From assembly GCF_003703975.1 (NCBI RefSeq), contig NZ_QTJY01000021.1, positions 1 to 64,000 on the forward strand: 64,000 nt of DNA, in the 5' to 3' direction. Below the pieces are notes generated by a model. The model saw only the letters and a list, made by a program, of their open reading frames with translations. It was not told the origin of the DNA and did no database searches. This document shows, piece after piece, positions 7,878-33,452 of this stretch. The translations under genes were made by a program, and so were the position numbers. The stretch's first letter is position 1, and each line of letters opens with the position of its first letter. This DNA is from Larkinella soli (GTDB lineage: Bacteria > Bacteroidota > Bacteroidia > Cytophagales > Spirosomataceae).

Positions 7878-7943
7878 TAAAATTAAGTGCTTCATCCAGG
7901 TGGCGCTTCTACTTTCCTTTTGATTTGTAATACTATTTTTCAG
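7878..7943 (-). promoter_or_regulatory. Conserved AraC-type box plus -7 element, copy P1
   Basis: Read on the minus strand, a 34-bp box (7943 to 7910) begins CTGAAAAATAGTA and ends AGTA; the two AGTA half-sites are 21 bp apart. Exactly 24 nt later comes the -7 element TAATTTTA (7885 to 7878). No TTTG -33 element is present at the expected distance, which suggests activator dependence. The module lies 77 bp upstream of the sialidase-like gene starting at 7801. The same box, spacing and -7 element recur at 19061-19126, 20110-20175 and 33387-33452. It lies in the 238-bp gap between the GH32-like gene and this operon, which holds no gene. Confidence 0.85.
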
Positions 7944-8039
7944 ACTTCAGACAGCGCCGAACGTCGGGCCAAATGGTTTCTGAAGTATTGTACAGGTTTT
8001 TGGGGAAGAATGGCCCCGGCGCCGGCGGTTCAGGCACCC

Positions 8040-9680
8040 CTACTGCTTACTGAAAAGGTTTTCCATCTGCCAGACTTCCAGCGTTTTAAGGGTTGCAGTG
8101 CTGCCCCGGGCGAGGACCGACACGCCCTGACTGTCCGTACGGCCCGGATACACCCGCACGGCCACACACTGCCTGCCGTTGACGAAAACTTCCACAATGC
8201 TTTTATCGACAAAGATGCGCAGGTCGAGCGGCTCGCCCTCGCGGAGGAGAACCGAAGCCGTCTCCGGCACCCTCGACCGGACGCCCTCCAGCGTGGAGGC
8301 TGTAGAATTATCGATGGAGACGGCGCTGTACTGGACGGCTTTTCCCGGCATTGACCGGTCCTGAAAACCGCCGTTTCTGTAGAAAAGGATGCGGGTATAC
8401 TCCTCCCGGCCGGGTGACCGCAGCACGTTTAGTTCGATCGTCGGCGACTGTTTCGGATCGATGACCGCGTGGATCTCCAGCGCATTCCCGGAAACCGCCG
8501 GCAGGACAACTTCCTGATTGGGCGGCAGAACCTGTTCGGCAATGGTCACCTTCCGGGTTCGCAGGGACGCGATGTCTCCGGTGGGTTCCATTTGCAGCTT
8601 CCCGTTCTCGTCCAGCGTCAGGCGCCGGGGCAGTGTCATGATCCGCCCCCAGGTTTTATCGGCCTTGCCCTCATTAATGTTGAAAATAGCAATGATTCCT
8701 CCCTTGCCGTCGGGGTAAGCCGAAGGGGCATGAACCCCGTTGGGCAGCATGGGGCCGTGATTGAAATTGCCGCCATCGGTGACGATGAATTTATCATGGA
8801 CCTGATCATAGTCGCCCAGAAGGTATTTTCCGCCACTCATGTGGCTGAAATGCAGCAGAATATACTTACCCTTGTCGCCGATCGGCCAGAAGTAGGGACA
8901 GGCCCCGTCGTCGCCCACCATCCCGTAGCCATCGTTTTCGATAAAGGGATGCAGATACTGCCAGTTCATCAGATCGGTGGAGCGGAACAGGAACAAAGCC
9001 CGAACCATTTTGCCGGCCGGTCCCACCGGCCGCTGCCCGGCCAGCACGCTGTAGTAGGCATCGCCTTTCTTCCAAATGGCCGGATCGAAGACGTTGTAGG
9101 GCAGTTTCTCACCCGGTTTCGGGATCGGAATTACGGGCTTGTTACCCAGCTTTGTCCAGTTCAGCAGCAACGGGTCGGTGGCGGTGGCCACCATGCTTCC
9201 GGCGCCAACGCCGTGGTACATGGCAATGACGCGGCCCGGCTCCACGAATGTCGTTCCCGAATAAACCCGGTCTTCGGGGTCGGGGTAGATGGCATACGGC
9301 AGATCACGCCAGTGAATCAGATCCGTACTAACGGCATGGCCCCAGTGGACCCGCGGGTCTTCCGGCGGAAATCCCTGATAGAACAGATGCCACCGGCCCT
9401 GCCAGAAACACAAACCGTTCGGATCGTTCAGGATTCCTTCCGGGTTGACGTAATGGTAGGCGGGTCGGTGGCGGTCTTTGGCGAGTTCTTTGCGGGCGGC
9501 TTCAAACCGCTTCAGGAGCGGGTTCGTTTTTAGTTGTTCTTCCTGTTCGGAGAGGGTAGTCCCGAAGGTATAGAACGGCACTTTGGATGCCCGGCTCTCC
9601 TGGGCCATCGCCATGTCGGAAAGCAGCGTTCCGGCCGTTAGTACGGCAAGTATCTGTATTTGCGCCGGCCGCCACTTCAT
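8040..9680 (-). CDS. GH32-like glycosidase homologue with altered active site
   Basis: A 546-residue exported protein with signal peptide (LAVLTAGTLLSDMAMAQ). It has the glycoside hydrolase family 32 architecture: N-terminal five-bladed propeller with the nucleophile motif NDPNG (85-89, D86), and a C-terminal beta-sandwich with LRIFVDKSIVEVFVNG. The RDP motif reads FDP (198-200), keeping D199, but the acid/base motif ECP reads ACP (260-262), so the expected glutamate is alanine; aspartates 257 and 258 are adjacent. Canonical GH32 enzymes hydrolyse fructans or sucrose. This one is either inactive, uses another acid, or acts on a different substrate. Its start overlaps the preceding gene's end by 4 nt; last gene of the SusC operon. 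Confidence 0.85.
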   Translation of the reverse strand: MKWRPAQIQILAVLTAGTLLSDMAMAQESRASKVPFYTFGTTLSEQEEQLKTNPLLKRFEAARKELAKDRHRPAYHYVNPEGILNDPNGLCFWQGRWHLFYQGFPPEDPRVHWGHAVSTDLIHWRDLPYAIYPDPEDRVYSGTTFVEPGRVIAMYHGVGAGSMVATATDPLLLNWTKLGNKPVIPIPKPGEKLPYNVFDPAIWKKGDAYYSVLAGQRPVGPAGKMVRALFLFRSTDLMNWQYLHPFIENDGYGMVGDDGACPYFWPIGDKGKYILLHFSHMSGGKYLLGDYDQVHDKFIVTDGGNFNHGPMLPNGVHAPSAYPDGKGGIIAIFNINEGKADKTWGRIMTLPRRLTLDENGKLQMEPTGDIASLRTRKVTIAEQVLPPNQEVVLPAVSGNALEIHAVIDPKQSPTIELNVLRSPGREEYTRILFYRNGGFQDRSMPGKAVQYSAVSIDNSTASTLEGVRSRVPETASVLLREGEPLDLRIFVDKSIVEVFVNGRQCVAVRVYPGRTDSQGVSVLARGSTATLKTLEVWQMENLFSKQ

Positions 9681-11467: not shown

Positions 11468-11514
11468 GGAGTAGAGATTGAGTGGGTTGATCATTGAAAA
11501 CCGGCACATGATCC

Positions 11515-12897: not shown

Positions 12898-12952
12898 ACG
12901 GGTGTCTGGAGGTTAAGCGCAGTGAAAAAGCCGGTTGGCTGGGTCGGGGCGG

Positions 12953-14290: not shown

Positions 14291-14303
14291 GGGCAGGGAA
14301 GGG

Positions 14304-15785: not shown

Positions 15786-15799
15786 GATGGGACGGGGGC

Positions 15800-19060: not shown

Positions 19061-19126
19061 CAAAATTAAGTTTCGTCCTTATCGGAATCTGCTACTTTTA
19101 TTTGTATTTGTAATACTATTTTTCAG
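19061..19126 (-). promoter_or_regulatory. Conserved AraC-type box plus -7 element, copy P2 (susC promoter)
   Basis: On the minus strand, a 34-bp box (19126 to 19093) begins CTGAAAAATAGTA and ends AAAAGTA. Its two AGTA half-sites are 21 bp apart. The -7 element TAATTTTG (19068 to 19061) follows after exactly 24 nt and matches the Bacteroidota TAnnTTTG consensus. A -33 TTTG is missing. The predicted transcription start, about 19054, leaves a leader of roughly 33 nt before susC. This is the best copy of the module and decides the susC start codon. Confidence 0.88.
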
Positions 19127-19166
19127 AAAAGCGATACCAGTACTTTTTTTCGGAGGGAAACTGAAA

Positions 19167-20109: not shown

Positions 20110-20175
20110 TCGAAAAATAGTATCAGAAATATGGATAAAAGTAACAGAATTAGCAAAGTTCGGAAGCTACTTTTG
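20110..20175 (+). promoter_or_regulatory. Conserved AraC-type box plus -7 element, copy P4
   Basis: On the plus strand, the 34-bp box (20110-20143) contains GAAAAATAGTAT and ends ATAAAAGTA, with AGTA half-sites 21 bp apart. After exactly 24 nt comes TACTTTTG (20168-20175), a full TAnnTTTG -7 element. No -33 TTTG is seen. It drives the eleven-gene plus-strand operon beginning with ridA at 20239 and lies only 71 bp from the divergent AraC gene start, so it could also affect the regulator's own expression. It excludes the longer ridA frame that begins at 20131. Confidence 0.88.
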
Positions 20176-20238: not shown

Positions 20239-20628
20239 ATGCGTAAAACCAAACTAATCCACCCCGATCGTGATCCTGCTTTTGCCACCGGCGCTTATTC
20301 AGACGGTGTAATTGCCGGAGGTTTCCTGTTCGTCAGCGGACAGGCTGCCGTCGACTTCCGGACCTCTCGGTTCGTGCCCGGCACCGTTGAAGAAGAAACC
20401 CACCGTACCTTACAGAATATCAAAACCATCGTCGAATCGGCGGGAGCGACGATGGACGATGTCGTCAAATGCACGGTTCACCTGGCCGACATCGCTGAGT
20501 TCGACCGCTATAATGCGGTCTATGCCGGCTATTTTCCGGAGATCAAACCCGCCCGCACCACCGTGCAGTCAGTGCTGGCGGAGGGGTTGAAAGTGGAAAT
20601 CGATTGCATTGTTAAACTCCCGGACTGA
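20239..20628 (+). CDS. RidA-family enamine/imine deaminase
   Basis: A 129-residue YjgF/YER057c/UK114 protein. RidA members hydrolyse reactive enamine/imine intermediates released by PLP enzymes to the 2-keto acid and ammonia. Family signatures include ATGAYSDGVIAGGFLFVSGQ near the start and the arginine in IKPARTTVQSVLAEGLKVEID near the end. The chosen ATG at 20239 gives normal family length and lies 64 nt after the -7 element; the longer frame starts inside the regulatory box. As first gene of an operon with a class III aminotransferase, it may protect that pathway from imines or act as a dedicated deaminase. Confidence 0.9.
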   Translation: MRKTKLIHPDRDPAFATGAYSDGVIAGGFLFVSGQAAVDFRTSRFVPGTVEEETHRTLQNIKTIVESAGATMDDVVKCTVHLADIAEFDRYNAVYAGYFPEIKPARTTVQSVLAEGLKVEIDCIVKLPD

Positions 20629-20642
20629 AAACCGTTCGCCGA

Positions 20643-21620
20643 ATGGATGAGATAATGGAACCAGAGGAGATCAGCGTCGGTGTGGTCGGACTGGGATTGA
20701 TGGGCAGCAGTATCGTGGCCGCCTTGCTGCTGTCGGGGCATCCGGTGAAAGCCGTTGCCCCGCTGCCGGATGAATTGGCCGGCGCGTCGGACCGGATTCT
20801 GAACCAGATCAGACACGCCGAAGAAGCGGATTTATTGTCCCGGCCGCTGGAAGCCTGCCTGGCCCGCCTGACGGTTTCGGGGGATTACGGCGTCCTGCAC
20901 GATTGCCGGCTCGTGCTGGAGTGTGTGACGGAGAAGATCGCCGTCAAGCAAACCGTCTACCGGAAAATCGCCGATGCGGTTGCCGGAGATGCCGTGATTG
21001 CCAGCAACACCTCGGCTATACCGATCAGTATGCTCCAGCGGTTTGTGCCGAACCCCGAGCGGTTCATGGGCATTCACTGGGCCGAACCGGCCTATATGAC
21101 CCGGTTTATGGAGATTACGTGCGGCATGCAGACTTCACTGGAACGGGCCAACTGGGCGTTTGAGCTGGCGCATCAATGGCAAAAGGAACCCACGCTGCTG
21201 CGAAAAGACATTCGCGGTTTCGTCACTAACCGGCTCATGTACGCCATCTATCGGGAAGCTTTTCACCTTGTGGAAACGGGCGCTGCCAGCATGGACAACA
21301 TCGACAAAGCCTTTCGCTACGACTCAGGGTCCTGGATGACAATGATGGGGATTTTCCGGCGTATGGACTATACCGGTTTGCAGGATTACCCGGAAATATT
21401 CCGGCGTATATTTCCCCTGCTGTCCAACTCGGAAGCCGTTCCGGAACTGATGAAGCCGTTGATGGAGAAGCAGTTGCGGGGGACGCAGAGTGTACAGGGC
21501 CTCTACGAATACACTGAAGAGGAAGCAAGGGAATGGGACAAGGCCTTTGCAGTTTTTAACAAGGATATTTTTCAACTGGCCGCCCGGTATCCGTTCCGGA
21601 CCGACCCGCGAATCGGCTGA
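20643..21620 (+). CDS. 3-hydroxyacyl-CoA dehydrogenase-like NAD-dependent enzyme
   Basis: A 325-residue member of the 3-hydroxyacyl-CoA dehydrogenase superfamily, which also contains L-gulonate and L-carnitine dehydrogenases. The Rossmann motif GLGLMG is at 16-21, the conserved SNTSAIPIS at 121-129, the catalytic histidine in GIHWAEP is H145, and the GFVTNR asparagine region follows. The signature GxHFFNP is altered to GIHWAEP, suggesting a non-CoA substrate. It starts 14 nt after ridA. A related but degenerate copy lies at 22986-23954 on the other side of the aminotransferase gene. Probably oxidises a hydroxy acid of the pathway. Confidence 0.85.
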   Translation: MDEIMEPEEISVGVVGLGLMGSSIVAALLLSGHPVKAVAPLPDELAGASDRILNQIRHAEEADLLSRPLEACLARLTVSGDYGVLHDCRLVLECVTEKIAVKQTVYRKIADAVAGDAVIASNTSAIPISMLQRFVPNPERFMGIHWAEPAYMTRFMEITCGMQTSLERANWAFELAHQWQKEPTLLRKDIRGFVTNRLMYAIYREAFHLVETGAASMDNIDKAFRYDSGSWMTMMGIFRRMDYTGLQDYPEIFRRIFPLLSNSEAVPELMKPLMEKQLRGTQSVQGLYEYTEEEAREWDKAFAVFNKDIFQLAARYPFRTDPRIG

Positions 21621-21628
21621 ATTCTGCT

Positions 21629-22948
21629 ATGACACACTACACCGAATCAGCGGCCCTGCTCGAACGGGCCAGAAAAGTACTGGCCGGGGGCGTTTCGTCC
21701 GAGTTCCGCAGGTACAATCACCCGCACGCACTCTTTTACACCCACGGCCAGGGCAGCCGGATTTACGACGTGGATGGCAATGAATATCTGGACTTTACGC
21801 TAAGCCAGGGACCGCTGCTGCTGGGACATTCGCACCCGGAAGTCCTGCGGGCCATCAACGAATACTCTGAACTGGGGCAACTCTTTGCCGGACAGCACAT
21901 CCGGGAAATCAAACTGGCCGAGAAGCTGGCCGACCTGATTCCTTCCGCCGAACTAATGCGGTTCTGCCTCGACGGTTCGGAAGCCGTGCAGACGGCATTT
22001 CGCGTGGCCCGCGCCAAAACCGGCAAGGCCAAGTTCCTGCGTTTTGAAGGGCACTACCACGGCTGGCTCGACAACGTGGCCTGGGGCCTTTCGACGCCCT
22101 CGCCCGACGCCCTCGGCGAGCGGGAAAACCCCACTGTATTTCCCTGGAGCGCCGGGCTGGCCGATCACGCCCGAGACGAATTCATCATCCTGCCCTGGAA
22201 CGATCTGGAGCTCGTGCGGAAGACCGTAGCCGAACACCATCACGAGCTGGCCGCTGTCATCACCGAACCGATCATGTGCAACAACGGCTGTATTCTGCCG
22301 CAGGACGGCTTTCTGCAGGGCCTTCGCGACCTGTGCGATGAGTTCGGGATGGCGCTCATTTTTGACGAGGTAATCACCGGCTTTCGGGTGTCGCTCGGCG
22401 GGGCACAGCAGCATTTCGGAATCACGCCCGACCTGTCCATTTTCGCCAAAGCCATCGCCAGCGGGTACCCGATCAGCGCCATTGTGGGCAAACGGGAGTG
22501 GATGCAGCTGATCGAGGAAGCCCGGGTCATTCATGCGGGAACGATGAACGCCGGCAATGCGAGTGTCGCGGCCGCCCTGGCCACCATCGGGGTGCTGGAA
22601 CGGGAGCAGCCCTACGAGCGGCTATACCGGCTCGGCCGGAAGCTGATGGCAGGGTTGCAGGCTGCGGCTGCCGAAATGGACCAGAATCTGCTGGTGCAGG
22701 GGCTCGGGCCGATGTTCCACACCGGTTTTACCGATCTGGAAATTGTCACCGATTACCGTGGGACGCTAGCCTACGACAAGGTAAAAATGACCCGGTTCAT
22801 CGCCGGACTGCACGACCGGGGCATCCGGGTGATCGGCCGGGGGTTGTGGTATATCAGCGCGGCTCATACCGAAGCCGACATCGACCAGGCTGTCGATACG
22901 GTCCGGGAAGTGCTGGAAAGCATGGCATTGGAAGCGATCAAGAACTGA
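21629..22948 (+). CDS. Class III aminotransferase, glutamate-1-semialdehyde aminomutase-like
   Basis: A 439-residue PLP enzyme of aminotransferase class III. The PLP-pyridine aspartate lies in IFDEV (D246), and the Schiff-base lysine in FAKAIASGYP is K274. Other family blocks are CLDGSEAVQTAFRVARAKTG and FEGHYHGWLD. It resembles HemL but sits in a catabolic operon, so transfer of an amino group to or from a sugar- or keto-acid-derived substrate is more likely than tetrapyrrole synthesis. It starts 8 nt after the preceding stop. The neighbouring RidA fits with a PLP enzyme releasing imine intermediates. Confidence 0.9.
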   Translation: MTHYTESAALLERARKVLAGGVSSEFRRYNHPHALFYTHGQGSRIYDVDGNEYLDFTLSQGPLLLGHSHPEVLRAINEYSELGQLFAGQHIREIKLAEKLADLIPSAELMRFCLDGSEAVQTAFRVARAKTGKAKFLRFEGHYHGWLDNVAWGLSTPSPDALGERENPTVFPWSAGLADHARDEFIILPWNDLELVRKTVAEHHHELAAVITEPIMCNNGCILPQDGFLQGLRDLCDEFGMALIFDEVITGFRVSLGGAQQHFGITPDLSIFAKAIASGYPISAIVGKREWMQLIEEARVIHAGTMNAGNASVAAALATIGVLEREQPYERLYRLGRKLMAGLQAAAAEMDQNLLVQGLGPMFHTGFTDLEIVTDYRGTLAYDKVKMTRFIAGLHDRGIRVIGRGLWYISAAHTEADIDQAVDTVREVLESMALEAIKN

Positions 22949-22985
22949 AGGCGATTCGCGCGATCCGCCTGTTAATGCTATTATC

Positions 22986-23954
22986 ATGGGGAATACAATT
23001 ACTCAGAGAGACGCCATTTTAGTGACGGGCTGGGGCCGATCAACCCGGGGAATTATCGCGTGTTTACGGCAGGCAGGCCATCCGGTGACGGTATATGCCG
23101 GCAACGGGTTTGAGACGGCCGAGTGCGCGCCGGTTTCCCCCCAGACGCTGAACATAAAGGAGCTGGACCGCTCCGTCAAAGTGGCCGACCGGCTGGAGGA
23201 TGTGGGAGATTTTAATCTGGTAATCGCCTGTACGGACGAAAACGAGTTTCAGAAACGGGCGCTGATCCGGCAACTGGAAGTGGTGCTGGCCCCGGATGCC
23301 CTGATTGGCATCAATACGGAGAGCATTCCCCTGAGCAGTCTTCAGCGGGACGCCCTGCACCCCGGGCGCATCGTCGGCGTCAACTGGACCGAACCCGCCG
23401 ACATGACCTTCTTTCTGGAAATTATCGCCAACGACACCACCGACCGCCGGCTAGTCAACGATTTGAACACGAAGGCCGGATTACGCTGGCAGAAAGACCC
23501 GTACGTCGTCTACAGCGACCTCGGCATCCGTACCCGGATGCTGTGCGCCATGATTCGGGAAGCGTTTTTTCTGCTTGAAAACGGGTATGTCTCCGTCGAG
23601 GACATCGACCGCGCCTGCCGCAACGATCCCGGCTATTACCTGCCGTTCAGCGGTCATTTCCGGTATATGGACCTGATGGGCGCTTTTATCTACGGCGTGG
23701 TCATGCAGGATTTGTTTCCCGAACTTGCGAAATCACGGCATATTCCCCGGTTTTTTGAGGAACTTGTGCAGCAGGGCGGGTTGGGCATGGTGACCCGGAA
23801 AGGCTTTTATGATTACGACCAGAGTGAAACCGGGCGCTGGGAGGAGTCGTTTCGGGAGTTCAGTCAGCAGATCAGGCTGCTGATCAGCAAATACCCGTTC
23901 AATTACGAAGAAACCCCGGAACCGGCGGCCAAGCAACCGGTCGTTTATGAATAG
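22986..23954 (+). CDS. Degenerate 3-hydroxyacyl-CoA dehydrogenase-like protein
   Basis: A 322-residue paralogue of the protein at 20643-21620, recognisable from GVNWTEPADMTFFLEI versus GIHWAEPAYMTRFMEI and MIREAFFLLENGYVSVEDIDRA versus IYREAFHLVETGAASMDNIDKA. The nucleotide-binding motif is altered to GWGRSTRG (15-22), the catalytic histidine position is N133, SNTS reads NTES (110-113), and the TNR asparagine is lost (IRTRM). It therefore looks like a non-catalytic partner or an enzyme with new chemistry. The frame is intact and the gene overlaps the dipeptidase start by 8 nt, so it is not an obvious pseudogene. Confidence 0.8.
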   Translation: MGNTITQRDAILVTGWGRSTRGIIACLRQAGHPVTVYAGNGFETAECAPVSPQTLNIKELDRSVKVADRLEDVGDFNLVIACTDENEFQKRALIRQLEVVLAPDALIGINTESIPLSSLQRDALHPGRIVGVNWTEPADMTFFLEIIANDTTDRRLVNDLNTKAGLRWQKDPYVVYSDLGIRTRMLCAMIREAFFLLENGYVSVEDIDRACRNDPGYYLPFSGHFRYMDLMGAFIYGVVMQDLFPELAKSRHIPRFFEELVQQGGLGMVTRKGFYDYDQSETGRWEESFREFSQQIRLLISKYPFNYEETPEPAAKQPVVYE

Positions 23955-25029
23955 GCGTCTGATCGTCGATGCCCACCTCGATCTGGCGATGAATGCGCTG
24001 GAATGGAACCGCGACCTGACCCGCCCGCTCGCCGAAATCCGGCAGCGCGAGATGGGCATGCGCGACAAGCCCGATCGGGGCCGGGGCACGGTTTGCCTGC
24101 CGGAACTGCGGAAAGGCGGTATCGGCCTCGTCGTGGCCACCCAACTGTCGCGGGTGACGCCCTTAGGCAGCTCGCTGCCCGGCTGGCACTCCCCCCAGCA
24201 GGCCTGGGCCATGACGCAGGCGCAACTCGTCTGGTACCGGGAGATGGAAGCCCTCGGCGAGATGGTCCAGATCACCGACCTGGCCGAACTGGACCGGCAC
24301 CTGGCGCTCTGGAACGACGACGGACTGCCCGACGAACGGAAGCCGGTCGGGTATATCCTCAGCCTGGAAGGGGCCGACTCGCTGGTGGATATTTCGTATC
24401 TGCACCGGGCCTACGATTACGGGCTGCGGGCGCTCGGCCTTTCGCATTTCGGGCCGGGCCGCTACGCGCCGGGGACCCGTATGGAAGGCCCCCTTACCCC
24501 CCTGGGGCTGGAGCTGCTGAAGGAAATGGACCGGCTGAACCTGATTCTGGACGTGACCCATCTGACCGACGAAGGGTTCGCTCAGGCCCTGGAGCGGTAT
24601 CAGGGGCCGGTCTGGGCAAGTCATCACAACGTCCGGACCCTTGTTCCGACGCAGCGGCAGTTGACCGACGACCAGATCAGACGGCTCATCGAACGGGACG
24701 CGGTCATTGGCGGGATGCTGGATTGCTGGGCCATGGACATCCGGTTTATCGACACCGTCTCTGACCCCTGGCAACTGAACATCCGGCTGGAAAACCTCGT
24801 CGATCACTGGGATCACATCTGCCAGATCGCCGGGAACAGCCGGCACGTAGCCATCGGCAGCGATCTGGACGGTATTTTCGGAACCGAACAATCACCCTGG
24901 GACCTGAACTCGATTGCCGATTTGCGGAAATACGAAGCCATTCTGGCAAAACGGGGTTACCGGCCCGACGATATCGACAATATTTTTCACGGAAACTGGC
25001 TGCGGTTTTTACGCCGGGCCTGGAGCTAA
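23947..25029 (+). CDS. Membrane dipeptidase (peptidase M19) family protein
   Basis: A 360-residue zinc metallohydrolase of the renal dipeptidase family. Metal-ligand motifs are VDAHLDL (H10, D12), LEGADS (E141), DVTHLTDEGF (H205), ASHHNVR (H226/H227) and IGSDLDG (D306). No signal peptide is evident, so it acts in the cytoplasm. M19 enzymes cleave dipeptides or other amide bonds, including D-amino acid linkages. In this operon it more likely removes an amino-acyl or amide substituent from the imported compound than digests peptides. The start overlaps the preceding gene by 8 nt. Confidence 0.9.
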   Translation: MNRRLIVDAHLDLAMNALEWNRDLTRPLAEIRQREMGMRDKPDRGRGTVCLPELRKGGIGLVVATQLSRVTPLGSSLPGWHSPQQAWAMTQAQLVWYREMEALGEMVQITDLAELDRHLALWNDDGLPDERKPVGYILSLEGADSLVDISYLHRAYDYGLRALGLSHFGPGRYAPGTRMEGPLTPLGLELLKEMDRLNLILDVTHLTDEGFAQALERYQGPVWASHHNVRTLVPTQRQLTDDQIRRLIERDAVIGGMLDCWAMDIRFIDTVSDPWQLNIRLENLVDHWDHICQIAGNSRHVAIGSDLDGIFGTEQSPWDLNSIADLRKYEAILAKRGYRPDDIDNIFHGNWLRFLRRAWS

Positions 25030-25044
25030 ACGACAGTAGCAGTC

Positions 25045-26430
25045 ATGGAAGCGCATGATTTTCGGGCCGGCGCGGCACAGATAGACATCACACCCCCGCC
25101 GGGAACCCTGATCAACGGGGACTTCATTACCCATTACGCCCGATTCATTCACGACAGCCTTTACGCCAGGGCGCTGGTGCTGCAACGGGGTGACACGACG
25201 GTTGCCATCGTGATCGTCGATATCTGTGCCATGCCGAAAGACCTGCTGGATGAGGTGAAGGTTCGTATTCAATCGCAGACGGGTTTGCTGCCGCAAAATG
25301 TCCTGATCGCGGCCACGCATACTCACGCAGCCGGCTCCGTAGCCAGCCTGCTGCTGGGGGCGGCCGATTTGCCGTACCGGCAGAAACTGCCGGGTCTGCT
25401 AGTCGAATCGGTCCGGGCGGCTTTGCAGACGCTGCGTCCGGCCCGGATCGGTTTCGGGGCCGTGGACGTGCCCGAACATGTGGTCTGCCGCCGGTTTTTC
25501 ATGAAGGAAGGCTACCAGGCGCAAAACCCCGTGACCGGCGGTCTGGACGGCGTGAAAACCAACCCGTTCGGCGATGAGCAGCAGATTGACCGCCGGGTGG
25601 CCCCGGTCGATCCGCAGGTAAGTTTCCTGGCCGTCAAAGGGCTGGACGACCGGTGGATCAGCCTATTGGCGAACTACTCCCTGCACTACGTTGGCGACTG
25701 GGAGAACGGCACCATCACGGCCGACTACTTTGGCGTATTTTCCGCCGAGATCGGTCGGCTGCTGGGCGCGGATTCGGGCTTCGTCGGCATGATGAGCAAC
25801 GGCACCAGCGGAGAGGCCAACATCTGGGATTTTCTGGATCCCGACCGCTATCCGAAAGAGCACTTCGCCAAAAGCGAGCTGATTGGAAAAGATATTGCCG
25901 CAAAGGTGTTTGATGCCCTGAAGACCGTTGCCTGGCAGGCCGACCCGGCTCTGTCCGCGGAGTATGCCGAAGTGGCCGCAGGGGTTCGTAAACCGACGGG
26001 TGAGGAACTGGAAGCCGCCAGACGACTGGTGGCGGATACGCAGTATAAAGCGATTCAGCAGGTCGACATGGACGTGTTGCGCCGGATTTACGCCCGCGAG
26101 CAGGTACTCCTCAACGAATATCCCGACACAAACCTCTTTCCCGTGCAGGCCCTTCAGATCGGCGAGGGCCGGATCGGTGCCCTGGGTGGAGAGTTCTTTG
26201 CCGAAACCGGCCTCAGGCTGAAGCAGAACCGTTCCGCTTATTTCACCATTACGATGGCCAACGGGTATATCGGCTACGTGCCGCCCGCGCACGAAATCGA
26301 GCGCGGAGGGTATGAAACCTGGCGCTGCCGGACGAGCTTTCTCGAACCGGGGGCCGAAGAAACAATCCGCGAGAAACTGACGGAGCTGCTGAAAACCGGC
26401 GTAGAGAGCCCGGTTCATCAACCCGGATAA
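25045..26430 (+). CDS. Neutral/alkaline ceramidase-like protein
   Basis: A 461-residue protein related to the N-terminal domain of neutral/alkaline non-lysosomal ceramidases. Its opening reads AGAAQIDITPPPGTLINGDF, then ARALVLQRGDTTVAIVIVDICAM and AATHTHAAGS, a histidine motif typical of the zinc site. FVGMMSNGTSGEAN resembles the family active-site serine segment. It lacks an obvious signal peptide. Known members hydrolyse N-acyl amides, but many bacterial relatives have no known function. It starts 15 nt after the M19 gene. Two amide-type hydrolases in a row suggest an N-acylated or amide-containing substrate. Confidence 0.82.
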   Translation: MEAHDFRAGAAQIDITPPPGTLINGDFITHYARFIHDSLYARALVLQRGDTTVAIVIVDICAMPKDLLDEVKVRIQSQTGLLPQNVLIAATHTHAAGSVASLLLGAADLPYRQKLPGLLVESVRAALQTLRPARIGFGAVDVPEHVVCRRFFMKEGYQAQNPVTGGLDGVKTNPFGDEQQIDRRVAPVDPQVSFLAVKGLDDRWISLLANYSLHYVGDWENGTITADYFGVFSAEIGRLLGADSGFVGMMSNGTSGEANIWDFLDPDRYPKEHFAKSELIGKDIAAKVFDALKTVAWQADPALSAEYAEVAAGVRKPTGEELEAARRLVADTQYKAIQQVDMDVLRRIYAREQVLLNEYPDTNLFPVQALQIGEGRIGALGGEFFAETGLRLKQNRSAYFTITMANGYIGYVPPAHEIERGGYETWRCRTSFLEPGAEETIREKLTELLKTGVESPVHQPG

Positions 26431-26454
26431 ACGACTCAACCCTTTTCTATCCCT

Positions 26455-27207
26455 ATGGAAACCTTTGACAACCAAGCTCTAAAAGCGTCGTTCCGGACCG
26501 ATGGGTATGTTTTCCTGCCCGGGTTTTTATCGGCCGGCGAAGTCCGTGAACTCAACGAAAAGGTGAACCACTTCATCGATACCGAAGTGGACCGTATGCC
26601 CCGGGAGCAGGTTTTTTACGAAGATAAGACCGACCCGACGACCCTCAAGCAGCTGATCGATATGCAGAAGTACGACGCCTATTTCGATACGCTGCTGAAC
26701 CAGAGTAAATTCAAGGAGATTGCCGAAATGCTGCTGGAGGATGAGGTGCTTCCCAAAACGCTGGAGTATTTCAATAAACCCCCCCAAATCGGCAAACCGA
26801 CTCCTCCGCATCAGGATAACTATTATTTCATGCTGAAGCCGGCCGAAGCCGTGACGATGTGGCTGGCTCTGGAAGACGTAGATGCCGAAAATGGCTGCGT
26901 CCGATACATAACCGGTTCGCACCTGCACGGCGTTCGCCCGCACGGCCGGACCCGGACGCTCGGCTTTTCGCAGGGCATTACGGATTTCTGGACTGAAGAT
27001 GATCAGGCCAAGGCGGTGGCGTTCCCGGCCGGCCCGGGCGACCTGCTCGTTCATCATTCTCTAACGATTCACTGGGCGGAGGCCAATCGCAGCGCCAACC
27101 GCACCCGGAAGGCCATCGGCCTGATTTACTGGGCAAAATCCGCGCAGGAGGATACTGAGGCCAAGGCGGCCTACCAGCAGAAACTGAAAACCGAACTGAG
27201 TTTGTAG
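26455..27207 (+). CDS. Phytanoyl-CoA dioxygenase (PhyH)-family protein
   Basis: A 250-residue Fe(II)/2-oxoglutarate-dependent dioxygenase-like protein. The iron triad HxD...H is visible as PHQDNYYF (H119, D121) and HHSLTIHWAEAN (H206), with R218 in NRTRKAIG positioned to bind 2-oxoglutarate. The family hydroxylates many small molecules and lipids. It lies 24 nt after the ceramidase-like gene and one nucleotide before the next gene's ATG. Likely hydroxylates an intermediate of the same pathway or removes a substituent oxidatively. Substrate unknown. Confidence 0.9.
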   Translation: METFDNQALKASFRTDGYVFLPGFLSAGEVRELNEKVNHFIDTEVDRMPREQVFYEDKTDPTTLKQLIDMQKYDAYFDTLLNQSKFKEIAEMLLEDEVLPKTLEYFNKPPQIGKPTPPHQDNYYFMLKPAEAVTMWLALEDVDAENGCVRYITGSHLHGVRPHGRTRTLGFSQGITDFWTEDDQAKAVAFPAGPGDLLVHHSLTIHWAEANRSANRTRKAIGLIYWAKSAQEDTEAKAAYQQKLKTELSL

Positions 27208-27208
27208 C

Positions 27209-28165
27209 ATGATTTCAGAAACGCTCGTTATCGGCCACGGCAGCTACCGGTACAGGGTCTTCCCGGACTGGGGAACACTCGATCCGGCAATCCGGCCGGT
27301 CAACGACTGCCACGAAATGGTCATCGACGCCCGCGGGCGAATTTTTCTGCTGACCAACGAAACCCGCAACAATATCCTGATCTACGACCGGTCGGGCAGG
27401 CTGCTGGATTGCTGGGGCACGGATTACCCCGGCGGCCACGGATTGACCCTGTCGAACGAAAACGGCGAGGAGTTTCTGTTTATTACCGACATCGAGCGCC
27501 ATCAGGTCATCAAAACCACCCTACAGGGGAGGGTGGTGATGGTGCTGGACTATCCGAAAGAAGTGCCCCAGTATACCTCCGCCGACCAATTTCTGCCCAC
27601 CCAGACCGCCCTTGCCCCGAACGGCGATTTTTACGTGACTGACGGCTACGGCCTGCAATACGTCATACAGTATACCGGCCGGGGGGAATACATCCGGCAC
27701 TGGGGCGGTCGGGGCGATACCGACGGGCAGTTCGACTGTGTCCACGGCATTGCGCTCGACACCCGGAAGCCGGGTCAGCCAACGCTGCTGATTACGTCCC
27801 GGAACCACAACGCCCTCAAGCGGTTTACGCTGGAGGGAGAATATCTCGGCACCATTCCGCTGCCCGGTTCCTTTGTCTGTCGGCCGGTTATTCACGGCCC
27901 GTACGTGTTTGCCGCCGTCTTCCGCTCAACCACCAACCGGAATTTCGGGTCGGGGTATATCACTATTCTGGACGAAAACGATACTGTTATCTCGACGCCG
28001 GGCGGAACCGCGCCGGTTTATTCCGACGGTTCGTTACAGCCGCAGACCCAGGCTGAGCCGGTGTTCGTTCACCCGCACGACGTGTGCGTCGACTCCGATG
28101 AAAACGTGTACGTTTGCCAGTGGAATGCGAATAAAGTGTATCCGATGCGTTTGCAGCGGGTCTGA
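27209..28165 (+). CDS. NHL-repeat/six-bladed propeller protein
   Basis: A 318-residue predicted beta-propeller. NHL-type repeats include GHGLTLSNENGEEFLFITDIERHQVIK, ALAPNGDFYVTDGYGLQYVIQY, FDCVHGIALDTRKPGQPTLLIT and VHPHDVCVDSDENVYVCQWN. No signal peptide is evident, so it seems cytoplasmic. Related propellers include lactonases and the amidating lyase; histidine residues in the repeat loops (HGLT, HGIA, HPHDV) could ligate metal as in peptidyl-alpha-hydroxyglycine lyase. It follows PhyH with a 1-nt gap. A hydroxylase plus a propeller lyase splitting a carbinolamide is an attractive but unproven idea. Confidence 0.8.
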   Translation: MISETLVIGHGSYRYRVFPDWGTLDPAIRPVNDCHEMVIDARGRIFLLTNETRNNILIYDRSGRLLDCWGTDYPGGHGLTLSNENGEEFLFITDIERHQVIKTTLQGRVVMVLDYPKEVPQYTSADQFLPTQTALAPNGDFYVTDGYGLQYVIQYTGRGEYIRHWGGRGDTDGQFDCVHGIALDTRKPGQPTLLITSRNHNALKRFTLEGEYLGTIPLPGSFVCRPVIHGPYVFAAVFRSTTNRNFGSGYITILDENDTVISTPGGTAPVYSDGSLQPQTQAEPVFVHPHDVCVDSDENVYVCQWNANKVYPMRLQRV

Positions 28166-28227
28166 GCAAAACCAGGAAACGCGTTCGTTAAATACGGTTT
28201 GATAAACATTATAAACCGCTAATTGCC

Positions 28228-29034
28228 ATGAAGATGCGCGAAAGCCGGGTCCTGCGAAAGCTGCGGGCCGGTGAAGTAGTCAGTTGTTTCAAGGTCAACT
28301 TCGGCGACGGTCAGGCGTCTGAACTGGCCGCCCTGTCGGGTTTTGACTGCGTCTGGATCGACCGGGAGCATCTGGCCCAGGACTGGTCGGTGGTGAGCGC
28401 GCACGTCTGGGCCACCAAAGCACACGATACCGACCTCATGGTTCGGGTGCCGCGCGGCAGCTACAGCGATTACGTCAAACCGCTGGAACTTGATGCCACC
28501 GGAATCCTGGTGCCGCATTGCATGGGCGTGGAAGACGCCCGAAACGTGGTCAGAATGACCCGGTTTCACCCGATCGGCCTCCGCGCCATCGACGGCGGCA
28601 GCGCCGACGGGCTGTATACCAACCTGAATTTCAGCGAATACCTCCGGCAGGCCAATCAGCAGCGGTTTGTCGTACTCCAGATCGAAGATCCTGAGCCCCT
28701 CGATGAGCTGGACGCAATTGCCGCTCTCGAAGGCGTGGATATGCTGTTTTTCGGTCCCGGCGATTTCAGCCAGGCCATCGGCGCCCCCGGCGAATGGAAC
28801 CACCCCCGACTCGAAGATGCCCGCAGGCGCGTGGCCGAAGCCTGCGTCCGGCACGGCAAGTTTGCGGCCACAACCGGCAGCATCGACCGGCTGGAGGAGT
28901 TTGTCGGCATGGGTTACAAATTTGTCAGTGTTGGGGCCGATGTCGTGGGCGTAAGCACCTACTGCCAGGGTCTAGTTAGTCGGTTCCATAAAGAAACGGC
29001 GACCGTTCAGCCGGCATCGGGCGGCTACAGATGA
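28228..29034 (+). CDS. HpcH/HpaI-family class II aldolase
   Basis: A 268-residue divalent-metal-dependent pyruvate aldolase-type protein. Signatures include CVWIDREHLAQD (general base H48), MVRVPRG, the metal-binding glutamate in LQIEDPEP (E153) and FFGPGDFSQAIG (D179). Family members cleave 2-keto-3-deoxy acids or 4-hydroxy-2-oxo acids to pyruvate and an aldehyde. It is preceded by a 62-bp gap without a clear terminator or promoter and overlaps the aldo/keto reductase gene by 4 nt. With the DapA-like aldolase of the divergent operon, the regulon encodes two aldolases of different mechanism. Confidence 0.9.
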   Translation: MKMRESRVLRKLRAGEVVSCFKVNFGDGQASELAALSGFDCVWIDREHLAQDWSVVSAHVWATKAHDTDLMVRVPRGSYSDYVKPLELDATGILVPHCMGVEDARNVVRMTRFHPIGLRAIDGGSADGLYTNLNFSEYLRQANQQRFVVLQIEDPEPLDELDAIAALEGVDMLFFGPGDFSQAIGAPGEWNHPRLEDARRRVAEACVRHGKFAATTGSIDRLEEFVGMGYKFVSVGADVVGVSTYCQGLVSRFHKETATVQPASGGYR

Positions 29035-29987
29035 AAAAAAGAGACCTGGGAACCACCGGCATTGCGGTTTCGGAACTGGCCTTCGGCGGGGTTGAAATCG
29101 GAATGCCGTACGGCATCGGCGTTAACAGCGAAGCCGACATGCCGACGGAACCGGAAGCGATCCGGCTGCTTCACGCGGCCACGGAAGCCGGTGTCAATTT
29201 TTTCGATACGGCCCGGCTGTACGGCGCCAGCGAAACCATCATGGGCAAAGCATTCCGGGACCGGCGCGGGCAGGTGGTGATCGAGACCAAATGCCGCCAC
29301 CTGCGGGACCCGGACGGCCGGTTGCCGGACGGCGCCACCCTGAAAAAACGCATCAGTACCTCGCTGCTGGAGAGTCTGACGGCCCTTGAGACGTATTACG
29401 TGGATATTTTCATGCTCCATCAGGCCGACCTCGGTATTTTGGAGAACGAAGAGATTCCGGCCGTCTTTGCAGACTTGAAAGCACAGGGTGTGATCCGGAG
29501 CACGGGCGTTTCTACCTATTCGGTGGAGGAAACCCGAAAAGCCATCGAAACCGGCGTGTGGGATGTGGTTCAGCTGCCCTTCAATCTGATGGACCAGCGG
29601 CAGGCGGCCCTGTTTGCGCTGGCCAGGGAAAACGGCGTCGGCATCGTCATTCGGTCGGTGTTGATGAAGGGTCTGTTAACCAGCAGGGGCCGCCGGCTGC
29701 ACCCGGCGCTGGCGGAGGTCGAAACCCATATCCGGCAGTTCGATGAACTGGTTCTGGAACCCGTTCCCGACCTTTCGACGCTGGCGGTCCGGTTTGCGCT
29801 GGCCTTTCCGGAAGTATCGTCCATCCTAGTCGGCATCGATAAGCCGGCGTATCTCCATCAGGCGCTGGCGGCCGTAAACGGCCCCGGGCTGGCGCCCGAA
29901 ATTATGTCCCGGGCCCGGAATCTGGCCTATCCCGACCCGCAGTTTCTGAACCTCCCCCACTGGGACCGAATGGGCTGGCTGACGTAG
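29031..29987 (+). CDS. Aldo/keto reductase
   Basis: A 318-residue (alpha/beta)8-barrel NADPH-dependent reductase. The catalytic tetrad is visible: aspartate in FFDTARLYGASE (with the tyrosine in the same block), lysine in VVIETKCRH, and histidine in IFMLHQAD. N-terminal LGTTGIAVSELAFGG is typical. Cofactor-binding sequence near the C-terminus (VSSILVGIDKPAYLHQAL) is present. Probably reduces the aldehyde released by the adjacent HpcH/HpaI aldolase, with which it is coupled by a 4-nt overlap. Substrate not defined. Confidence 0.92.
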   Translation: MKKRDLGTTGIAVSELAFGGVEIGMPYGIGVNSEADMPTEPEAIRLLHAATEAGVNFFDTARLYGASETIMGKAFRDRRGQVVIETKCRHLRDPDGRLPDGATLKKRISTSLLESLTALETYYVDIFMLHQADLGILENEEIPAVFADLKAQGVIRSTGVSTYSVEETRKAIETGVWDVVQLPFNLMDQRQAALFALARENGVGIVIRSVLMKGLLTSRGRRLHPALAEVETHIRQFDELVLEPVPDLSTLAVRFALAFPEVSSILVGIDKPAYLHQALAAVNGPGLAPEIMSRARNLAYPDPQFLNLPHWDRMGWLT

Positions 29988-30011
29988 GTCCATCCAAAAC
30001 CGTCTATTCGT

Positions 30012-30788
30012 ATGCATGTCAAAGAGTTACTAAGTTTAAAAAATACCATCAGCCTGGTAACGGGCGGGGCCGGCAATTATGGAAGGTGCATCGTGGAAGG
30101 GCTGGCCGAAGCGGATTCGACGGTGTTGATTGCATCCCGGAATGTAGCGGCCGGCGAAGAGGTGGCCGCCCGGTTTCGGGCGCAGGGGCTGACTGTGTAC
30201 GCCCTGCAGGTCGATCAGGGCGATCCGGCTTCGGTTCGGACGCTGAAGGAGCAGATCCGCTCGCAGTTCGGGCGGCTGGACGTGTTCGTCAACAATGCGG
30301 TTTCCCGACCCATGAAAGGCTACGATGCACCGATTGAGGATTTTGCCGAATCGATGCGGGTCAATGCGACGGGTTCGATGGACATTCTGCGCGAAATGGC
30401 CGACCTGATCGTGGAGAGCGGAGGGGGTAGCATCATCAACATCGGTTCGATGATGGGCATGTTCGGGCCGGACCTTTCCAACTACGATGGCACTGCGATG
30501 GGCACCCCGCCCCCAGACTATTTCTTTCACAATGCCGGATTGCTCAACCTGACGAAATACATGGCCCAGGTGCTGGCCGGCAAAAACGTGCGCGTCAACT
30601 GCATCAGCCCCGGCGGGCTGTTCAACCACCAGCCGGAACGGTTTCTGGAAAATTACACCAGAAAAGTACCCCTGCGACGCATGGCCAATCCCGACGACAT
30701 CAAAGGGCTGATCGTGCTACTGGCCTCGCGGGCGGGTGCCTACATCAACGGTGAGAACATTCTGATGGACGGGGGCCTGAATGCCTGA
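30012..30788 (+). CDS. SDR-family protein with altered active-site lysine
   Basis: A 258-residue short-chain dehydrogenase-like protein. It has the TGGAGNYG nucleotide-binding motif (18-24), VNNAVSRP, the catalytic asparagine in RVNATG (N118), and serine in INIGSMMG (S146). The expected YxxxK pair reads Y170-F-F-H-N174, with asparagine replacing lysine ahead of the usual AGLLNLTKYMA helix. It may be inactive, use a different base or act in a complex. It closes the plus-strand operon, ends 5 bp from the convergent SGNH gene, and no terminator hairpin is seen between them. Confidence 0.85.
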   Translation: MHVKELLSLKNTISLVTGGAGNYGRCIVEGLAEADSTVLIASRNVAAGEEVAARFRAQGLTVYALQVDQGDPASVRTLKEQIRSQFGRLDVFVNNAVSRPMKGYDAPIEDFAESMRVNATGSMDILREMADLIVESGGGSIINIGSMMGMFGPDLSNYDGTAMGTPPPDYFFHNAGLLNLTKYMAQVLAGKNVRVNCISPGGLFNHQPERFLENYTRKVPLRRMANPDDIKGLIVLLASRAGAYINGENILMDGGLNA

Positions 30789-30793
30789 CTCCG

Positions 30794-31495
30794 TCATCGG
30801 ATGTACCGGCCGGCCCTGAGCACCTCCGCCCATTTCAGGTAGCCCGCCAGCGTCAGGTGAACGCCGTCCCAGGTATACTCTCTCCTGAGCTTTCCGGCTT
30901 CGTCGGCAAAGTGCGGGTGAAGGTCGATCACGGCAAAACCCTCCGCCGGGGCCATTGCCTTCAGAGCATTGTTTAGAAACCGGATGTGGTCTTCGCGGTT
31001 GTAATGGCTTTTGAGTTTCTCAAAGCCCTCATTGGTGGGCAGTAGCGTCTGAAAAAAAATCTGCGTCCGGGGCGAAGCCGCTTTGAGCCGGCGAACCATC
31101 CGGCGGTAATTCGCCAGAATAACCGAATCGGGAATCTGCCGGGCCAGGTCGTTGATACCGATCAGAATAAACACACTGGCAGGGCGCCCCTGAATTACTT
31201 CATCCAGCCGTTCCAGAACCCCGAACGTGATGTCGCCCGGTATGCCCCGGTTTTTGTACCGGGAGTTGCCCAGCAAATCACTCCAGTCGGCCCAGAAGGT
31301 CAGGCTGTTGCCCAGAAACACCACATCTTTGCGTGAATGCGGCAGCGACCGGAACAAATCCACGCGCGCTTTGTAAATATCCGGCCGCACCGTGCTGTCC
31401 CATTTCACCGCCTGTGCGTCGGCCCGAAAGAGGCCGAAGAACAGACAAAGCAGCAGATAAAGCTCTTTTCTTACTTGCCGTTGACCGTGCATCAT
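30794..31495 (-). CDS. Secreted SGNH/GDSL-family hydrolase
   Basis: A 233-residue protein with signal peptide (ELYLLLCLFFGLFRADAQA). SGNH blocks are present: VVFLGNSLTFWAD (nucleophile serine in the GNSLT variant of GDSL), ILIGINDLAR (GxND), and TWDGVHLTLAGY (Asp/His of the triad). Such enzymes remove acetyl or other acyl esters from sugars. It lies 25 nt downstream of the Tat-exported TIM-barrel gene and belongs to the P3 operon. A role in de-O-acylating the target glycan in the periplasm fits the locus. A second ATG one codon later is equally possible as start. Confidence 0.88.
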   Translation of the reverse strand: MMHGQRQVRKELYLLLCLFFGLFRADAQAVKWDSTVRPDIYKARVDLFRSLPHSRKDVVFLGNSLTFWADWSDLLGNSRYKNRGIPGDITFGVLERLDEVIQGRPASVFILIGINDLARQIPDSVILANYRRMVRRLKAASPRTQIFFQTLLPTNEGFEKLKSHYNREDHIRFLNNALKAMAPAEGFAVIDLHPHFADEAGKLRREYTWDGVHLTLAGYLKWAEVLRAGRYIR

Positions 31496-31520
31496 TGTCG
31501 GGAACTGGTCCGGTGGGGCC

Positions 31521-33344
31521 TTACACGGTTTTAGGCCGAACGGCCAGTTCGATGGCGGCTACCGTGATGAGTTCTTTGCTCTGGTTTTCAACCACAATCC
31601 GGTTCCAGCCGTCGGTGAGCAGCGAAACCGGAAACCGGTAATTATATCCCAGGTGGTCGGGGATATGGTGGGTCAGGGGGCCGCAGGGAAAAAGCAGTTT
31701 CTGACTGGACTCGCTCGTGAGGTTCGGCCAGCAGCCGTTGACCGAAACCGCCAGGTAGGCGGGAGGGTTGCCGGCTTTCAGCACCACCTGTACCACCAGT
31801 TCCAGATTTCGGTCGGCGGGCTCGGCGCACATGGCTAGCCGGAACGGCCGCTGCGAAAAAGGGTCGATGCTGGCGGGCAGCAGGGCGGGTAGTTCGAAGG
31901 GCGTCGGATTCGAAAAGTTTCCGGCGGTGCTCATACAGTACTGCTTGGGTTTACCCCGTAAAAAATCGAGCTTGTCAATGTCGCGCAGGGCGGTATAGTC
32001 GGCCCGGAAGCCCGGTGTTGCATTCTGGTCCGAAGAGAAAAAGTTGAACCACTCGATCCCCTGCGCACCCATCGCCAGTTTTCCGGCCGCGTTGGCCCGT
32101 TCAATCTCCGGGCAGGCTCCGATATACCGCATTCGCTCTCTGATCGTTCCCGACTCGTTCTGCGTCGGCAATGTGTTGGCACCGTCGTCCACAGAACCGT
32201 AGATGGTCACGCGATTGCCCAGACGCTGTCGCAGTTCGTCGTGCGGCATGTCCCAGGTCGTAGCCCAGAAACCCGCCGGAATGACAAAATCGAGGGTGCC
32301 TTCGCGGCAGAGTGTGACCACATCCAGGCCAATGGCCTTCAACAGGTCGAGGTCACCCGGGATGCGCATTCCCAGCGGATACGGTTTGCCGGTTTTCTTC
32401 GCCTGCCGTTGCGTGAGTTTCCGAATCTGCCGGAACCAGTCGTTCATCATAGCAATCGTCGCGGAGGAAGCGCCGGGTTCGCAGCAGAGCGGCTGGCGCC
32501 ACCAGTCCAGCTCCAACCCCTCGAAGTCATAATCCTCCACCACCTCCCGAATCTGCTGAAACATCATTTCCCGGACCTCCGATTTTTCGTAATTGAAGCC
32601 CTCCCGGTCATGCCGGTTTTGCAGGCCGTAATAAGCCGACTGCAGCCGCATTTCCTTCTGTTTGAACAGCGGATGATTGAAAAAGCTGCCTTCCGGATTC
32701 CGACTGCCGTGCATGTCGTTCATCCGGATGCTGACCCAGGGTGAGATTTTCCGTCGACGGCAGGCTCTAGAGGTTTCCGCCAGCCAGTCCACGCCCGCGT
32801 CGATCAGGTCCTGATAGCGGTCCATAAAACGGGAGAAATTATCCAGGAATTCTTCCACGGCTTCGGGCTCCGAGATGCCCTGGCAGATGGCGTGGCCTCT
32901 GAAAAACTCCCGGTCACCGCGTCGGTAACCGTCGAGAATGCTGGGGAATTTTTTGGTGGGATACCAGGCCCGGTTGGCGTTGGCGTTGATCACAAAGGTG
33001 TCGATTCCGTTGTCGGCCAGTTCGTCCACATAACGATGTATGGCTTTAGCTTGGAAAGGGCCGCCTACCGCCGTTGGCCGGGTGCTCATCTTGCCGGTGC
33101 GGGGGTTGACCAACGTTTTCAGCGTGTAATCTTCGGGTTGCCAGCGTTCAGGATTATAAAAATAAACACAGGTATCCCCGTTGAACAGGTTCCGGTGTTT
33201 GTCAAGCGCCGGTTTTTCTGAAAATTGTTTTGGCTGCCCCTCCACCGAAGCCGTCAACAAACTTGGAAACACTGAGGCCGTAGCAACGCTTCCCAAGCCG
33301 CCACGTAGAAAATTCCGACGGTTTCTTAGCGATTCAAATCCCAT
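31521..33344 (-). CDS. Tat-exported TIM-barrel protein, glycoside hydrolase-like
   Basis: A 607-residue protein. I start it at 33344 (MGFESLRNRRNFLRGG), which yields a twin-arginine signal (RRNFLRGGLGSVATASVFP) and lies about 36 nt after the predicted transcription start; the longer frame at 33404 begins upstream of the -7 element. The middle part resembles glycosyl-hydrolase-like TIM barrels: DNGIDTFVINANANRAWYP, MMFQQIREVVEDYDFEGLELDWWR (an E-L-D-W strand end with candidate acids) and DFVIPAGFW. A beta-sandwich follows at the C-terminus. Probably a periplasmic glycosidase of the regulon, substrate unknown. Confidence 0.8.
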   Translation of the reverse strand: MGFESLRNRRNFLRGGLGSVATASVFPSLLTASVEGQPKQFSEKPALDKHRNLFNGDTCVYFYNPERWQPEDYTLKTLVNPRTGKMSTRPTAVGGPFQAKAIHRYVDELADNGIDTFVINANANRAWYPTKKFPSILDGYRRGDREFFRGHAICQGISEPEAVEEFLDNFSRFMDRYQDLIDAGVDWLAETSRACRRRKISPWVSIRMNDMHGSRNPEGSFFNHPLFKQKEMRLQSAYYGLQNRHDREGFNYEKSEVREMMFQQIREVVEDYDFEGLELDWWRQPLCCEPGASSATIAMMNDWFRQIRKLTQRQAKKTGKPYPLGMRIPGDLDLLKAIGLDVVTLCREGTLDFVIPAGFWATTWDMPHDELRQRLGNRVTIYGSVDDGANTLPTQNESGTIRERMRYIGACPEIERANAAGKLAMGAQGIEWFNFFSSDQNATPGFRADYTALRDIDKLDFLRGKPKQYCMSTAGNFSNPTPFELPALLPASIDPFSQRPFRLAMCAEPADRNLELVVQVVLKAGNPPAYLAVSVNGCWPNLTSESSQKLLFPCGPLTHHIPDHLGYNYRFPVSLLTDGWNRIVVENQSKELITVAAIELAVRPKTV

Positions 33345-33386
33345 AACAAACGGTTTTATTAGACCAGGACTTCGCTGGATTCCTAG

Positions 33387-33452
33387 TAAAAATACCTCCG
33401 TCACAGGACTTTTACTTTTACTAATTTATGGATTTGTAGTACTATTTTTCAG
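33387..33452 (-). promoter_or_regulatory. Conserved AraC-type box plus -7 element, copy P3
   Basis: On the minus strand, the 34-bp box (33452 to 33419) begins CTGAAAAATAGTA and ends TTAGTA, with AGTA half-sites 21 bp apart. A further pair of AGTA-like repeats (AAAGTAAAAGT) follows directly. Exactly 24 nt after the box is TATTTTTA (33394 to 33387), the -7 element. The module ends only 3 nt from the left end of the IS3-family element, so sequences that once lay upstream may have been displaced. It sets the downstream gene start at 33344. Confidence 0.85.

Follow-up and report, generated by a model that had tools for sequence, protein, structure and literature searches.

The closest described relatives of the system reported here are AraC-family operators made of two direct-repeat half-sites. 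As far as the accessible portions of the papers go, the half-sites at the Escherichia coli PBAD promoter are centred at -52.5 and partly overlap the -35 element (PMC7408454), the AraC-family rhamnose regulators of Bacteroides have predicted direct repeats with a 21-bp period (PMC3870299), and the carnitine regulator CdhR of Pseudomonas aeruginosa uses 6-bp half-sites with a 15-bp spacer, which also amounts to a 21-bp period (PMC5806209). Here we analyze a 64,000-nucleotide stretch of the Larkinella soli genome (contig NZ_QTJY01000021.1, positions 1 to 64,000; this whole stretch is called the window below), in which four intergenic sites, S1 to S4, carry a promoter module consisting of a box with two half-sites and a -7 element at fixed spacings. 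To our knowledge, the operators and promoter geometry of Bacteroidota activators are seldom known. We conclude from sequence comparison that the four modules are very probably activator-dependent sigma-A promoters of a single AraC-family regulon, the box being the regulator's two-half-site operator. An earlier note on this DNA had described the module as defining a regulon without naming a regulator, and the evidence given below points to the AraC-family protein encoded inside the locus.

In Bacteroidota the sigma-A -7 consensus is TAnnTTTG (PMC9723704, PMC12632263), placed at -12 to -5 (PMC9723704), and a -33 site is named for the Bacteroidota promoter (PMC12632263; all from the accessible portions of these sources). 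In the window, four places match the box, GAAAAATAGTA-N17-AGTA, perfectly (7910-7941, 19093-19124 and 33419-33450 on the minus strand, 20112-20143 on the plus strand; Table 1), and seven match it with up to three mismatches, whereas 100 shuffles average 0.49 such matches and never exceed 3. In all four sites the two AGTA cores are 21 bp apart and a TAnnTTT(G/A) element follows the box after 24 nt, agreeing perfectly with TAnnTTTG in S2 and S3 and ending in A in S1 and S4. Pairwise comparison of the sites gives mean identities of 1.00 for half-site 1, 0.61 for the stretch separating the two half-sites, 0.83 for half-site 2 including its AG extension and 0.81 for the -7 element, compared with 0.31 over the last 20 nt of the filler and 0.25-0.26 in the flanks beyond the module. 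The half-site core reads A-A-x-A-G-T-A-n-n-A-G; S4 departs from AAAAGTA in its proximal half-site, which reads AATTAGTA. The four copies and both spacings claimed in the earlier note are thus exact, and its gap of 24 nt is constant in length at all four sites; the filler is unrelated in sequence as claimed, except that it is not variable throughout, since the conserved core runs beyond AGTA to AGTAnnAG and leaves about 20 nt of truly variable sequence rather than 24.

The Bacteroidota -33 element has the form TTTG or TTG. No TTG occurs where a -33 element would be expected at any of the four sites (the note had stated this for TTTG), and the absence of this element from all of them fits activator dependence. 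Each site is correctly oriented in front of one predicted transcription unit, with the ATGs at 7801, 19021, 20239 and 33344 confirmed downstream, 35-72 nt from the predicted start points when the -7 element is taken as -12 to -5. In the 6.92-Mb genome (82 contigs), a 63-bp pattern with both spacings and up to three mismatches matched S1-S4 alone, each with 0 mismatches, and the same pattern read backwards gave 0 matches; the scan therefore did not return the many random matches that would speak against a regulon, and the claim that the window holds no fifth copy is true genome-wide at this stringency. Exact GAAAAATAGTA occurs six times in the genome, four of them in the window.

Table 1. Promoter modules, proposed regulator and half-site-like copy in the window
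Feature	Position	Strand	Details
S1	7878..7941	-	half-site 1 7931-7941; half-site 2 AGTA 7910-7913; -7 TAATTTTA 7878-7885
S2	19061..19124	-	half-site 1 19114-19124; AGTA 19093-19096; -7 TAATTTTG 19061-19068
S3	20112..20175	+	half-site 1 20112-20122; AGTA 20140-20143; -7 TACTTTTG 20168-20175
S4	33387..33450	-	half-site 1 33440-33450; AGTA 33419-33422; -7 TATTTTTA 33387-33394
AraC-family regulator, 290 aa	19170..20039	-	N-terminal cupin, helical linker, two C-terminal helix-turn-helix motifs (HTHs); proposed to bind the box
Half-site-like GAAAAAAAGTAC	19140..19151	-	27 bp upstream of S2 half-site 1; degenerate

The candidate regulator gene lies between S2 and S3, where it is the sole AraC-family regulator, and Pfam recognized no other regulator among the 27 locus genes, some of which have no family. 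Its predicted structure (predicted local distance difference test score, pLDDT, 80.7) has an AraC-like fold over both domains, with the cupin sensor, the linker and the two HTHs, and the protein combines the two features of the AraC/XylS family, a two-HTH C-terminal domain and an N-terminal cupin-type sensor/dimerization domain. The regulator is present in all eight sister Larkinella genomes with 78-92% identity (89, 92 and 90% in Larkinella humicola, L. terrae and L. rosea, respectively), in each case with at least one adjoining box. A search with the half-sites only, the -7 element not being required, covered 20 kb to either side of the start of the regulator in these genomes and in the window; it found 33 boxes, of which 30 have TAnnTTT at exactly 24 nt (26 of 29 in the sister genomes alone). 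Of the three remaining boxes, two are in genome G008, an upstream half-site that overlaps the equivalent of S2 and a match inside the GIFT gene, and the third is in G006, where CAACTTT and then the PhyH orthologue follow it.

The targets are conserved as well: of the 26 correctly spaced modules lying no more than 20 kb from the regulator in the sister genomes, 25 are followed by homologues of the genes that come first after S1-S4 (SusC in 8 cases, RidA in 8, BNR in 6 and a 607-aa protein in 3), while one module in G006 precedes none of the window genes. S2-type modules stand before a SusC homologue (65-90% identical) in 8/8 sister genomes, directly adjoining the regulator in 7/8, and S3-type modules before the RidA orthologue (84-89%), again in 8/8. 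S1-type modules precede the BNR orthologue (79-86%) within 20 kb of the regulator in 6/8, and S4-type modules precede the 607-aa orthologue (79-81%) in G002, G007 and G008 and also in G001, G003 and G004.

To follow module and regulator across 99 genomes, we used an extended 64-bp pattern, built from the window and genus sites and allowed up to three mismatches. This strict module has 42 matches in 11 of the 99 genomes (G000-G008, G030 and G031), which are exactly the genomes encoding a regulator at least 59% identical, and none in the other 88; the backwards control gave 0 in all 99. With related genomes treated as independent, Fisher's test returns a p value of 8e-15; the nine genus genomes are not independent of the pattern, and among the 90 that are, G030 and G031 alone match. 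The pathway aminotransferase (E <= 1e-120) is found in 13 of the 99 genomes, 11 of which have the close regulator. The loose 63-bp pattern (up to three mismatches) was dropped for relatives: it matched 83 of the 99 genomes, at numbers like those of its backwards control.

Matches confined to this locus and related genes would, according to the note, support the regulon, and the L. soli genome has matches at this locus only. In the sister species the module is not so confined: by position, 32 of the 42 strict matches in the 11 genomes are no more than about 26 kb from the regulator on its own contig, and the other 10 are on other contigs. Modules outside the main locus were found in sister Larkinella at L231-L234, L236 and L238-L242. 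By Pfam, the genes after these outlying modules include a DUF7133/HEAT/cytochrome c protein (L231), a BNR protein (L232) and a SusC-type receptor (L236); L233 and L242 precede proteins of 785-792 aa without a family, and the remaining genes are grouped by similar N-termini only.

Beyond the genus, we assembled 80 named loci, metagenome-assembled genomes included, and divided them into 45 with a regulator at least 55% identical and 35 with one below 50%, a split set after viewing the list, in which the identities leave a gap from 49 to 55%. We trained a box matrix on Larkinella and ran it on 42 of the 45 high-identity loci (three from Larkinella were omitted; one of the 42, L114, is genome G031 of the 99) and on all 35 low-identity loci. 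It gave 43 matches in 25 of the 42 and none in the 35, which shows the absence of the Larkinella-type motif only, and reversed sequences gave 0 matches. Genera with a box include Cyclobacterium, Lunatimonas, Lunatibacter, Rhabdobacter, Agriterribacter, Segetibacter, Chitinophaga, Mucilaginibacter, Sphingobacterium, Parapedobacter and Pedobacter. TAnnTTT stands at 24 nt behind 26 of the 43 boxes, and the fuller TAnnTTTG at 24 nt in 24 cases, at 25 nt in one and at no other offset. An open reading frame starts downstream of 24 of these 26 modules, compared with 218 of 2000 random places, and 22 of the 26 precede orthologues (at least 40% identical) of the window genes HCDH1, SusC, RidA, HpcH, PhyH or MFS. 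In the 42 loci, 21 bp is the commonest half-site spacing (28 counts vs 2 in the reversed control), and a second peak at 18 bp (18 counts vs 1, AATA being allowed in the count) is probably in part due to AATAATA overlaps in Cyclobacterium-type boxes. The neighbours of the regulator also differ between the groups: aminotransferase, HCDH1 and HpcH genes accompany it in 23, 21 and 18 of the 45 high-identity loci vs 2, 1 and 0 of the 35 low-identity loci. The fixed-geometry regulon proposed in the note is thus backed by the genome scan, both spacings in eight Larkinella genomes, conserved target genes and other genera, with conservation of spacing holding among the sister species but incompletely outside the genus.

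Of the 17 non-Larkinella boxes lacking a 24-nt -7 element, 14 are found upstream of the regulator gene at a distance of no more than about 250 nt, nine of them 68-75 nt from its start codon. The S3 box in the window is likewise 72 nt from the divergent araC start codon, yet it also faces the divergent operon. At eight Cyclobacterium/Lunatimonas loci (L105, L108-L112, L140 and L143), the box near araC is strong and has no -7 element, and a weaker second box 83-319 bp away has the -7 element for the HCDH1 operon, so that the two jobs of the box look split there, judging by this arrangement. No -7 element at a consistent offset from the neighbouring box was found for the araC gene itself, and position only suggests autoregulation or looping as the role of these boxes.

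We propose that the regulator binds as a dimer to the two tandem half-sites, which, being 21 bp or two helical turns apart, would lie on one face of the DNA. With the -7 element at -12 to -5, the AGTA cores would fall at -61/-58 and -40/-37 with a midpoint at about -49, and the proximal AG extension would reach about -33, the place of the absent -33 element. The bound regulator could touch polymerase at this place or stand in for the -33 element, as in class II activation, and such a contact would leave the 24-nt gap rigid while its sequence is free. Two features of class II sites are found here, half-sites about 21 bp apart and a proximal half-site at a fixed distance by the upstream promoter element (in 4/4 window sites, 30/33 Larkinella boxes and 26/43 boxes elsewhere). 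The cupin domain may sense a ligand derived from the catabolized compound, upon which four operons would be turned on together, the predicted products being SusCD uptake proteins and hydrolases from one, RidA, 3HCDH, aminotransferase, M19, PhyH, HpcH, AKR and SDR proteins from a second, BNR, MFS, DHDPS-like and SDR proteins from a third, and the 607-aa protein with a GDSL lipase from a fourth. Autoregulation is a further possible role for the box that lies about 70 nt from the start codon of the regulator gene itself.

Several observations weigh against this interpretation. No box reaches the threshold in 17 of the 42 high-identity loci, including Niabella and most Sphingobacterium loci, and 17 of the 43 non-Larkinella boxes have no -7 element at 24 nt, so the geometry is not universal. 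We compared recognition helices between the window regulator with 23 of the 45 high-identity regulators and 7 of the 35 low-identity ones: the second helix hardly differs between box and non-box groups (1 of 15 positions). The first helix (residues 212-225), by contrast, speaks for the interpretation: at 12 of its 14 positions a single residue is kept in at least 83% of the 24 sequences of the box group, and at 8 of the 14 this group departs from the residue most common in the seven distant regulators (residue 219 is C in Larkinella regulators vs mostly N in the box group). In genomes G016 and G035 the pathway aminotransferase occurs (71 and 69% identical), yet their regulators are only 45% identical, and weaker box-like sites are present that start GTAAAA(T/C)AGTA and have a -7 element at 24 nt in G035 and TACCTTT at 25 nt in G016; these two cases suggest that the operator may drift together with the regulator. 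Finally, co-occurrence in the 99 genomes would also fit any other protein travelling with the pathway.

That last point is the strength of a model in which the box belongs to some other regulator, or to a dedicated sigma factor, that accompanies the pathway: pathway genes and regulator themselves co-occur (in 11 of the 13 aminotransferase genomes), and co-occurrence alone cannot separate the two. However, several genera have a box some 70 nt from the start codon of araC, the 21-bp tandem repeat is a published AraC-family design, the -7 element is of the ordinary sigma-A type and no such competitor was recognized by Pfam among the 27 locus genes, some without a family, which together make this model very unlikely. 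Somewhat less improbable, though still unlikely, is an AraC-type protein that binds the box yet mainly represses, its site overlapping the -33 region to block polymerase. The proximal half-site does overlap that region, and box-only sites without a correctly spaced -7 element do occur near araC, but an operator for repression needs no fixed distance to the -7 element, which outside Larkinella stands at 24 nt in 24 of 25 TAnnTTTG cases, and with no TTG in the -33 register the four window promoters look weak unaided. The identity of half-site 1 in all four sites could also reflect recent duplication of one promoter that spread with the locus without shared regulation; this we regard as extremely improbable, since identity among the sites is close to chance in the filler (0.31) and flanks (0.25-0.26) and both spacings are kept before orthologous genes in sister species and other genera.

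Activation by the AraC-family regulator thus remains the reading we favour, and a bolder version of it, which we consider doubtful, would generalize the module to a composite promoter of activator and -7 element, in which an AraC-type protein, held at exactly 24 nt from the -7 element, takes over the role of the -33 element completely, across several Bacteroidota orders (to which, going by genus names, we take the box genera to belong). The boxes without a -7 element beside the regulator gene would then be looping or autoregulatory operators, and the whole would amount to an AraC-like light switch working with the Bacteroidota polymerase.

Compared with the described systems, the module resembles the I1-I2 site of PBAD, as presented in the accessible text, in its two direct-repeat half-sites, its centre near -50 and its overlap with the upstream promoter element, and the regulator shares with E. 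coli AraC the predicted combination of a cupin sensor and a two-HTH DNA-binding domain. The differences are that the two sensor domains share 13% identity in structural alignment, the promoter is of the Bacteroidota -7 type without a -33 element, and the half-site sequence and the locus are different. It shares the 21-bp direct repeat with the Bacteroides rhamnose regulators, for which the accessible part of PMC3870299 gives no spacing to a -7 element; no rhamnose pathway assignment above cut-off was obtained for the window locus (Pfam, 27 genes; NCBIfam, 20 genes; RhaR itself was not compared). CdhR, as presented in the accessible sections of PMC5806209, is likewise an AraC-family protein, is divergent from a catabolic operon and has two direct half-sites, with a protected region of 34 bp, but its half-sites are GGTCGC and its authors call it a class I activator with a site upstream of the promoter.

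The note had called the regulon undescribed. We found no description of the operator, motif or regulon in the open-licence literature (subscription papers and RegPrecise lay outside this scope), although the 21-bp repeat design itself is known (PMC3870299, accessible part); the design is known, and what we did not find described in that literature is the regulator, the operator, the genes targeted and the fixed 24-nt distance that links the box to a Bacteroidota -7 element. The analysis gives a specific operator, a likely regulator and a target list in about a dozen genera, metagenome-assembled genomes included. It also draws attention, by way of their shared regulation, to a set of uncharacterized catabolic genes, and it provides a clean setting in which to study the interplay between an AraC-type activator and a polymerase of the unusual -7/-33 type.

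The catabolic gene set spans positions 622-33404 of the window. S1 precedes a minus-strand run from 7801 to 622 (BNR, MFS, a 367-aa protein without a family, DHDPS-like, HEAT, Gfo-like and SDR genes), and S2 precedes susC, susD, two BNR genes, a GIFT-domain gene and a GH32 gene. S3 precedes a plus-strand run, 20239-30788, encoding RidA, two 3HCDH-type dehydrogenases, a class III aminotransferase, an M19 peptidase, a ceramidase-like protein, PhyH, NHL, an HpcH/HpaI aldolase, AKR and SDR. S4 precedes the gene for the 607-aa protein (31521-33344, minus), whose start is twin-arginine-like and for which neither Pfam nor NCBIfam gives a family, and the GDSL lipase gene. All 27 locus genes were searched against Pfam and 20 of them against NCBIfam, and these searches yield family-level names only for the pathway; among the matches listed for two proteins (25 of 171 and 25 of 68) no NCBIfam equivalog was above its cut-off, the Rid subfamily model alone having passed, and nothing relevant on this gene combination was found in open-licence papers. 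Upstream of S2, the half-site-like copy at 19140-19151 is a possible extra half-site, and at its place G008 has a perfect GAAAAATAGTAT.

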